64,000 bases of DNA, taken from contig NZ_CAJE01000012.1 of the NCBI RefSeq assembly GCF_000308215.1, forward strand, positions 1 through 64,000, in the 5' to 3' direction. Below the pieces are notes generated by a model, which had not been told where the DNA came from, did no database searches, and saw only the letters and a list, made by a program, of their open reading frames with translations. Shown one piece after another: positions 36,623-38,652 of this stretch (positions are counted from its first letter, which is position 1; every line of letters starts with the position of its first letter). The stretch comes from Methanomassiliicoccus luminyensis B10 (lineage in GTDB: Archaea > Thermoplasmatota > Thermoplasmata > Methanomassiliicoccales > Methanomassiliicoccaceae). The position numbers were made by a program, and so were the translations under genes.

Positions 36623-36792
36623 GTTCCGGCGCTAACGTGGGAGAGGAGACATTATAACCTTAATGGCGCCGGAGCGGCCCACGCAACCCGCCCCCGGCGG
36701 GAAGGGACGCTTTCGTGACGGGCCCTCCGCGCCCCGAATTATCTCCATACTCGCGCGGTACCGGATGTCACGTCGAAAAGTTTTTACATGAA

Positions 36793-36827
36793 TTTAGGTA
36801 TCCCTAAACTATTTAGGGCATCCTAAA
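36793..36827. promoter_or_regulatory. Tandem DtxR/IdeR-like palindromes before the flavodoxin gene
   Basis: Two copies of TTTAGG-N4-CCTAAA, at 36793-36808 and 36812-36827, set 19 bases apart. The inner halves form a third palindrome CCCTAAA-CTA-TTTAGGG. TTAGG/CCTAA inverted repeats are the hallmark of DtxR/IdeR/MntR-family metalloregulator sites. The array lies 41-75 bases before the flavodoxin ATG, just after a weak TATA-like TTTTTACA (36780-36787), where a repressor would cover the transcription start. Iron-limited induction is the natural reading. Confidence 0.7.
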
Positions 36828-36867: not shown

Positions 36868-37317
36868 ATGAGCAAGGTCGCAATAGTATATTGGAGCGGC
36901 ACCGGGAACACCGAGGCCATGGCCTCCCTTGTGGCAGAGGGAGCGAAGAGCGCGGGCGCCGAGGTCGAGGTCTATCAGGCCAAGGACTTCGCCCCGGGAA
37001 CGGCGGAGAGGTACACCAAGATCGCCTTCGGGTGCCCGGCCATGGGCGACGAGATGCTGGAAGAGGATGAGTTCGAGCCCATGTTCGCTTCGGTGGAGCC
37101 GACGCTGAAGGGGAAGAGCGTCGCCCTGTTCGGCTCCTATGACTGGGGGGACGGCGAGTGGATGCGCAGATGGGAGGAACGGTGCGCATCCACGGGGGCC
37201 AACATCGTCGCCGTGACGATGGCCCACGAAGCCCCTGACAAGGACGCGGAAGCCGCCTGCAAGGCGATGGGGGCCGAGCTGGCGAGGGCAGGGACGTCCC
37301 AGGTCCCCGGTGGTTGA
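36868..37317 (+). CDS. Flavodoxin
   Basis: Small FMN electron carrier that can replace ferredoxin when iron is scarce. Seen: VAIVYWSGTGNTEAMA at residues 4-19 (FMN phosphate loop, (T/S)GTGNTE), FGCPAMGDEMLEEDEF near 52-67 (first aromatic-loop region) and VALFGSYDWGDGEW near 88-101 (second FMN loop, DWGxGEW). 149 aa, a short-chain flavodoxin. The ATG follows GGAGAGAACGAT. First gene of an operon with a DUF3793 gene and placed directly behind the tandem metalloregulator-like operator. Confidence 0.93.
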   Translation: MSKVAIVYWSGTGNTEAMASLVAEGAKSAGAEVEVYQAKDFAPGTAERYTKIAFGCPAMGDEMLEEDEFEPMFASVEPTLKGKSVALFGSYDWGDGEWMRRWEERCASTGANIVAVTMAHEAPDKDAEAACKAMGAELARAGTSQVPGG

Positions 37318-37319
37318 GC

Positions 37320-37901
37320 ATGTCGAGGGACGACCTAGGCGAGAGGTTCGAGAGGCAACTGGTGAGACATTGCTCGCCGACGCTGGCCGGGCTCAAGTCC
37401 GGAAACATTTTCAACCTTTTCATCGACCTCGGGCAAAGGCGGTCGCTGGATCAGAGCATCAGCGCCTGGAACGCGCGGCTGAACGGAAAGGGCATCTACT
37501 TGACAGTTCTAAAATCGGACGGGGCCAGGGCGCTGGTCTACGTGTACCGCAGGGGAATGCTGGCCGAGGACCTGGGGTCGGAGGCCGCCGCGCGGTTCCT
37601 TTCACCGTACGGGTACCGGAGCCCGGACCCCGACGCCTCCATCGAGCGCCTGAAGGAGCGAATCGACAGCGCCTCCCCCTTCCCCCATGAGATCGGGCTG
37701 TTCCTGGGCTACCCTCTCCACGACGTGGTCGGCTTCATCGAGAACGGCGGCCAGGCCCCTATCCTCTCGGGATGCTGGAAGGTGTACTCGAACGCCGATC
37801 AGGCCAGGGAGCGGTTCGAGATGTTCCGGAAATGCAGCGGGGAGTACCTGAACGTGTTCAACTCCGGGACCTCCGCCGATCAGCTGGCGGTGGGTCCGTA
37901 G
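37320..37901 (+). CDS. DUF3793-family protein
   Basis: 193 aa. Family features from memory: CSPTLAGLKSGNIFNLF near 20, GKGIYLTVLKSDGARALVYVYR near 55-76, FPHEIGLFLGYPLHDVVGFIENGG near 120-145 and a YW/CWKVYSNADQA stretch near 150, all present. DUF3793 genes often sit beside flavodoxin genes in anaerobes; function is unknown, with an iron- or heme-related role suspected from context. An alternative TTG start lies at 37314. It begins three bases after the flavodoxin stop, so it shares its operator and probably its metal response. Ends in TAG. Confidence 0.82.
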   Translation: MSRDDLGERFERQLVRHCSPTLAGLKSGNIFNLFIDLGQRRSLDQSISAWNARLNGKGIYLTVLKSDGARALVYVYRRGMLAEDLGSEAAARFLSPYGYRSPDPDASIERLKERIDSASPFPHEIGLFLGYPLHDVVGFIENGGQAPILSGCWKVYSNADQARERFEMFRKCSGEYLNVFNSGTSADQLAVGP

Positions 37902-37965
37902 GGAGGGTTCTCTCCCCCTTTACCGACAGTAATTATTTTACCCACCTGTGATATCGAAGCATTCC

Positions 37966-38652
37966 ATGTTGGTGTTCTGCCACCTCTTCATCGGAGCGGT
38001 CTTGGGCTTGTTCCTGTACCAGGCCACCGGGAAGCGTTGGATGGTCCCGGTGGCGGCGGCCGGTGCCATGGTGCCGGACCTTATCGACAAGCCGCTGGGG
38101 CACCTTATCCTCCAGAGCACTCTGGACTCCGGCCGCATCTTCGGCCATTCCCTGCTGTTCCTGTCGCTGCTGGTCATTGCCGGCCTGATCATATGGAAGT
38201 GGCGCTCCTCACTGGCAGGCCTGGTCCTATCGGCCGGCATAGTCTCGCATCTCATCCTCGACTCCATGTGGGAGAACCCCACGACGGTGTTCTGGCCACT
38301 CCTGGGGCCGTTCCAGGCGGGCCACTATCCCGACTACTTCGGCAGCTCCTTTATCGTCGAGATCACCTCCCCCACGGAGTGGGTGTTCGGTATCGCCCTG
38401 GTGTGGGTGTTCCTAACGCTCTACAAGGATGATATCTTCAGGCCGCTGGACCCGCTCAGGAAGAACCTGGACCCGCTGTCCAAGCCGCTGCTGGGGGCCA
38501 TGATCGTCCTCGGCATCGGGTACCTCATCATCGGCATCCTGGACATGATCAACGAGCCCGGTGCCGGCACCGCCACCCTCATGCTCGGCGTAGCCTCCCT
38601 GTCCGGAGGGGCGGCAATGCTCTCCCGGTACCGGGACGACCCCCTCGTCTGA
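37966..38652 (+). CDS. YdjM-like membrane-bound metal-dependent hydrolase family protein
   Basis: 228 aa with about six hydrophobic segments. Seen: CHLFIGAVLGLFLYQ at the N-terminus, AAGAMVPDLIDKPLGH near 28-43, GHSLLFLSLL near 62, and SAGIVSHLILDSMWENP near 93-110. The scattered His and Asp residues (H, PDxxDK, GH, SHxxLD) are those of the DUF457/YdjM membrane hydrolase group, whose true substrate is not known. The ATG at 37966 is 26-30 bases after AATTATTTTA (37931-37940), a leaderless start; a GTG further upstream is possible. Monocistronic. Confidence 0.78.
   Translation: MLVFCHLFIGAVLGLFLYQATGKRWMVPVAAAGAMVPDLIDKPLGHLILQSTLDSGRIFGHSLLFLSLLVIAGLIIWKWRSSLAGLVLSAGIVSHLILDSMWENPTTVFWPLLGPFQAGHYPDYFGSSFIVEITSPTEWVFGIALVWVFLTLYKDDIFRPLDPLRKNLDPLSKPLLGAMIVLGIGYLIIGILDMINEPGAGTATLMLGVASLSGGAAMLSRYRDDPLV

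Follow-up and report, generated by a model that had tools for sequence, protein, structure and literature searches.

A predicted tandem DtxR/IdeR-type iron operator upstream of a flavodoxin–DUF3793 gene pair in Methanomassiliicoccus luminyensis

Metal regulators of the DtxR family are known from archaea, among them MDR1 of Archaeoglobus and Idr1/Idr2 of Halobacterium; DUF3793 is not known to belong to their regulons. For the actinobacterial member IdeR, crystal structures have captured one dimer on half of the classical 19-bp box, at one promoter, and a 14-bp consensus, TTAGGNNNNCCTAA, has been proposed for this single-dimer site (PMC8464063). Iron control of a flavodoxin in anaerobes is exemplified by the Fur-controlled fldX of Clostridioides difficile and Clostridium acetobutylicum, which is strongly induced by iron limitation (PMC6311696). 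Here, we analyze a putative operator within a 64,000-nucleotide stretch of M. luminyensis B10 DNA (the window). Judged by its sequence, this operator is a single-dimer DtxR/IdeR-type iron box within a genome-wide iron regulon, which is a kind already known. Less expected is what stands under it, since the comparisons below appear to tie DUF3793, an uncharacterized protein family, to iron-type control in archaea and bacteria alike.

The operator and the genes downstream

Two exact copies of the palindrome TTTAGG-N4-CCTAAA, already pointed out in an earlier note on this DNA, lie at 36793–36808 (box 1, TTTAGGTATCCCTAAA, with TATC between the arms) and at 36812–36827 (box 2, TTTAGGGCATCCTAAA, with GCAT between the arms). 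When the same pattern is searched with up to three mismatches, the window yields 11 matches against 9.9 expected, and boxes 1 and 2 are the only exact ones. The starts of the two boxes are 19 bp apart, the spacing given in the earlier note, which amounts to ~1.8 helical turns. The third palindrome described between them also exists (CCCTAAA-CTA-TTTAGGG, 36802–36818), but it is composed of the right half of box 1 and the left half of box 2, and its half-sites are wrongly oriented for a DtxR dimer. Hence, we rejected it as an operator; most plausibly, it arises from the mere adjacency of two palindromes.

Box 1 and box 2 each contain the single-dimer core TTAGG-N4-CCTAA, an exact match to the 14-bp site TTAGGNNNNCCTAA. 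By inspection, the classical 19-bp two-dimer box (TTAGGTTAGSCTAACCTAA) is absent at either position, which holds the 14-bp unit alone. The assignment to a DtxR/IdeR-like operator stands on the comparative evidence presented below, in the form of two single-dimer units rather than a classical box. Nor do the sites, being TTAGG palindromes, match the GATAAT-type 19-bp inverted repeat of a Fur box. Both boxes are situated between a candidate BRE/TATA element on the forward strand (CGAAAAG-TTTTTACAT, 36774–36789, read from the sequence by position) and the pair of genes that they would control.

The first of these genes (36868–37317, forward strand) encodes a short-chain flavodoxin of 149 amino acids (PF00258, E = 8e-21; TIGR01753, 146.3 bits against a cut-off of 123). 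The second (37320–37901, forward strand), which begins after a gap of 2 bp behind the flavodoxin stop codon, encodes a DUF3793 protein of 193 amino acids (PF12672, E = 1e-53, 182 bits against a cut-off of 25.1), matching profile positions 1–166 of 167 and present as a single copy in the host genome. These profile matches bear out both gene identities proposed in the earlier note. On the same strand, 46 bp past DUF3793, a gene for a YdjM-family membrane protein follows (37948–38652), which read-through from the flavodoxin–DUF3793 promoter could reach.

The AlphaFold2 model of DUF3793 is a confident mixed alpha/beta structure (mean pLDDT 95.6, pTM 0.91). Its residues Cys18, His123, and Cys172 are conserved almost without exception. 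A profile search of the PDB with DUF3793 returned zero sequence relatives among solved structures, and Foldseek gave nothing at E <= 0.001 (best E 0.05, over 72 columns). As neither search produced a related structure, assignment to a known fold was rejected. Our searches of the open-access literature found no relevant publication on DUF3793 or PF12672. From gene context, our leading guess is that DUF3793 may be an iron-sparing accessory working with or beside flavodoxin.

The regulon and its regulator in the host genome

Gene content points to an archaeal host, for example through FEN1- and topoisomerase VI-like genes identified by eye in L028 and L022. A pattern search of the host genome (2.62 Mb, ~60% GC) found 12 exact copies of TTTAGGN4CCTAAA against 0.02 expected under a first-order Markov model trained on 238 kb of that genome, and just 2 sites with one mismatch, where 1.1 would be expected. 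The exact sites thus stand apart as a population of their own. Alignment of all 12 with their flanks yields ATTTAGG-N4-CCTAAAT, with the middle favoring ATAT. They distribute over eight promoters, six with flavodoxin or metal-transport targets and two lacking a clear iron gene. Besides the flavodoxin–DUF3793 pair, the six comprise the promoters of a ZIP transporter, of feoA-feoB, of an ABC exporter with a Trep_Strep-family membrane protein farther downstream, of a secreted protein followed by a Peripla_BP_2 protein (divergent from dtxR), and of a second Peripla_BP_2 ABC cluster, where a ChuX/HutX haem-utilization gene lies immediately upstream of the boxes. The same site before iron transporters, which the earlier note proposed to look for, is thus present in this genome, and it recurs at feoAB and dtxR in relatives.

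At one of the two remaining promoters, an exact pair 54 bp apart (C14:68367/68421, equivalent to L025:12368/12422) lies directly after a third Peripla_BP_2 gene. Downstream of it, no gene has an evident link to iron; the candidate target is a 97-aa open reading frame resembling a small winged-helix protein (L025:12658–12951). At the other, a box at C17:45974 (L027:9975) precedes a gene (L027:10055–10483) for a small hydrophobic protein of 142 amino acids with internal repeats and zero Pfam matches.

Paired boxes occur at four host promoters, with spacings of 19, 35, 44, and 54 bp, the 19-bp spacing being found at no other pair than that of the window. Each of the three wider pairs flanks a TATA-like element, whereas the two window boxes both follow the candidate TATA box. 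This arrangement bears on the reading that the window palindromes arose by chance, or form a hairpin in the 5' leader, and play no regulatory role as DNA. A transcription start near the candidate TATA box would indeed place part of the boxes in the leader. However, chance is hard to reconcile with 12 sites for 0.02 expected and with their non-random neighbors, and the bracketing of a TATA-like element at other promoters argues that the box acts as DNA, leaving this explanation with next to no probability.

Only one DtxR-family gene in the host genome scores above the Pfam cut-off (C14:53333). Its product has the DNA-binding, dimerization, and FeoA-like domains (PF01325, PF02742, and PF04023), and its residues Met8, His77, Glu81, His96, Cys100, Glu103, and His104 align with the metal ligands of the diphtheria toxin repressor. 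The host regulator carries a ligand set of the iron type. Paired boxes are located in the region divergent from dtxR, ~255 bp from its start, and in four relatives an exact box stands directly at dtxR. A DtxR was found in every relative examined, those lacking an exact box included, so its presence fails to predict the box and was set aside as uninformative.

Among the highest-scoring solved relatives of the host regulator is MntR, itself a member of the DtxR family. The boxes could accordingly be DtxR sites at which mainly manganese or another metal is sensed, with the flavodoxin–DUF3793 pair following that metal, and a ZIP transporter in the regulon and a box before an MntP-like gene in a relative (identified by eye) would fit such a role. 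We consider it unlikely, given that the Met/Cys ligand pair is that of iron-type DtxR and that the regulon is dominated by feoA-feoB and the Peripla_BP_2 clusters, with ChuX/HutX as a neighbor. Iron is hence the metal that we presume the regulator to sense.

DUF3793 in archaeal relatives and bacteria

Across 61 genomes of the order, DUF3793 is found in six, namely, the genome of the window and five from a sister family. In these five archaea, no flavodoxin adjoins DUF3793, which nevertheless has boxes of its own. In four, an exact box lies directly upstream, in most cases joined by a near-exact second copy on the other side of a TATA-like element; in the fifth, there are two degenerate copies. 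Three of the five genomes also encode a flavodoxin of the window type (52–55% identity) unlinked to DUF3793, and each of these three genes follows a pair of boxes. The 14-bp cores are exact in two of the pairs, and the third pair is degenerate. No boxes accompany two other flavodoxin-like matches, which are more distant. The feoAB genes are preceded by an exact box in three relatives. In one relative (G015), an exact box lies before a gene that by eye resembles an MntP-type manganese exporter (L050:1501–2169). Within the family to which the window belongs, some genomes possess DtxR but not the exact box, which indicates that the site has drifted or that the regulon is smaller there.

For bacteria, a scan of species genomes yielded at least 585 DUF3793 loci, of which we analyzed the 80 best-scoring; nearly all are from Bacillota and most are clostridial. 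Clostridial carriers of a DUF3793–flavodoxin pair include Lacrimispora and Lactonifactor. A palindrome count without a preset motif in these 80 best loci brought out RGTTAG-N6-CTAACY. The wider form TTAG-N6-CTAA, to which the archaeal box also conforms, is present in the 250 bp upstream of DUF3793 in 50 of the best 80 loci (shuffles: mean 0.53, maximum 3) and missing from the other 30. Relative to the remainder of the loci, it is 33-fold enriched in this upstream region. Fur-box scores upstream of DUF3793 in the best 80 loci did not rise above those of shuffles, and Fur control was rejected on this ground.

These loci also inform on whether DUF3793 could be a passenger that takes no part in responding to iron, the operator serving flavodoxin alone for iron. 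The position of DUF3793 as second gene in the window is compatible with this, as is the same-family flavodoxin that adjoins it in 59 of the best 80 bacterial loci (of at least 585). In 56 of those 59, however, DUF3793 comes first, the usual order being DUF3793–flavodoxin, and the palindrome is kept in 13 of the 21 loci among the best 80 that lack an adjacent flavodoxin. Together with the boxes at DUF3793 in the five archaea, this makes a mere passenger very unlikely. The tie between DUF3793 and the iron response claimed in the earlier note extends to archaea without an adjacent flavodoxin and also to bacteria, where the palindrome takes a variant form. Because the site marks iron-uptake genes and DUF3793 is linked to this kind of site in other archaea and many clostridia, DUF3793 most likely takes part in the iron-starvation response.

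Neighbors of the strict palindrome were inspected in four sampled clostridial genomes, with genes named by eye except for ZIP, which was assigned by Pfam. The palindrome precedes an Fe-type ABC binding protein and permease, feoB (~590 bp away), a ZIP transporter, ABC exporters, superoxide dismutase, and DUF3793–flavodoxin. Other matches precede genes without a clear iron role, so that not all matches need be functional. In a clostridial genome (G064), the strict palindrome is also found upstream of genes resembling class I fructose-bisphosphate aldolase and enolase (L152 and L154). Close to clostridial boxes, a gene resembling a regulator (L159) was considered as a DtxR and rejected, its Pfam matches being weak ones to MarR.

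ZIP and ABC exporter genes are box-linked in both the archaeon and clostridia. The same is seen for a methyltransferase, which follows a one-mismatch box in the host genome (L028:7975–8629) and has a clostridial look-alike also behind a box (L163:6684–7378), suggesting that regulon content beyond DUF3793 may be common to both domains. At another locus (L078:3989–4681), a single reading frame runs from DUF3793 into the C-terminal part of a flavodoxin, as would result if the neighboring pair had been joined by an internal deletion.

In a maximum-likelihood tree, the window DUF3793 groups with bacterial proteins, a 99/96 branch separating it from the five other archaeal copies, and its identity reaches 48% to clostridial proteins compared with 32–39% to other archaea. 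The simplest reading of this tree, whose root is undefined and in which the window branch is long, is a separate acquisition from clostridia. If so, then DUF3793 was brought under a DtxR-type box at least twice. It is tempting to see in DUF3793 a dedicated iron-starvation family with a fold new relative to solved structures, a flavodoxin partner or iron-sparing accessory that repeatedly gained DtxR-type control in anaerobic archaea and clostridia; we offer this broader picture tentatively, as somewhat less probable than not. The family gains a concrete, testable place in the iron-starvation response, with independent support from two domains, and an iron regulon is mapped for an archaeal order for which we found none described in the literature searched.

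Proposed mechanism and comparison with known systems

The window boxes very probably constitute a tandem operator through which the host DtxR/IdeR-family iron repressor controls flavodoxin and DUF3793. Under iron-replete conditions, two DtxR dimers loaded with Fe(II) would each occupy one of the 14-bp TTAGG-N4-CCTAA sites. Bound just downstream of the candidate TATA box, they would sit over the likely start site and prevent transcription of the pair, which is presumably read as one unit. As iron falls, the repressor would leave the operator, allowing flavodoxin and DUF3793 to be made, and flavodoxin would then presumably substitute for iron-sulfur ferredoxin.

The host would resemble the archaea with MDR1 and Idr1/Idr2 in employing a DtxR-family regulator for iron genes, although their lineages are distant from that of the window. 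Like fldX (PMC6311696), the window flavodoxin would be under iron-type control in an anaerobe, here as a prediction from sequence. Whereas fldX has a Fur box, the 80 best of at least 585 bacterial DUF3793 loci are enriched in the DtxR-like palindrome instead.

The closest parallels are with the actinobacterial DtxR/IdeR systems, in which iron-uptake genes likewise dominate the regulon and the regulator is a DtxR-family protein with a FeoA/SH3-like third domain. In contrast to those systems, the host lacks the 19-bp two-dimer box, and its units repeat 19–54 bp apart rather than overlapping by 5 bp. The host sites further differ in their extended arms (ATTTAGG...CCTAAAT) and in their setting at archaeal TATA-type promoters. 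In this genome, the single-dimer DtxR/IdeR site would serve as the standard operator unit across an entire regulon.
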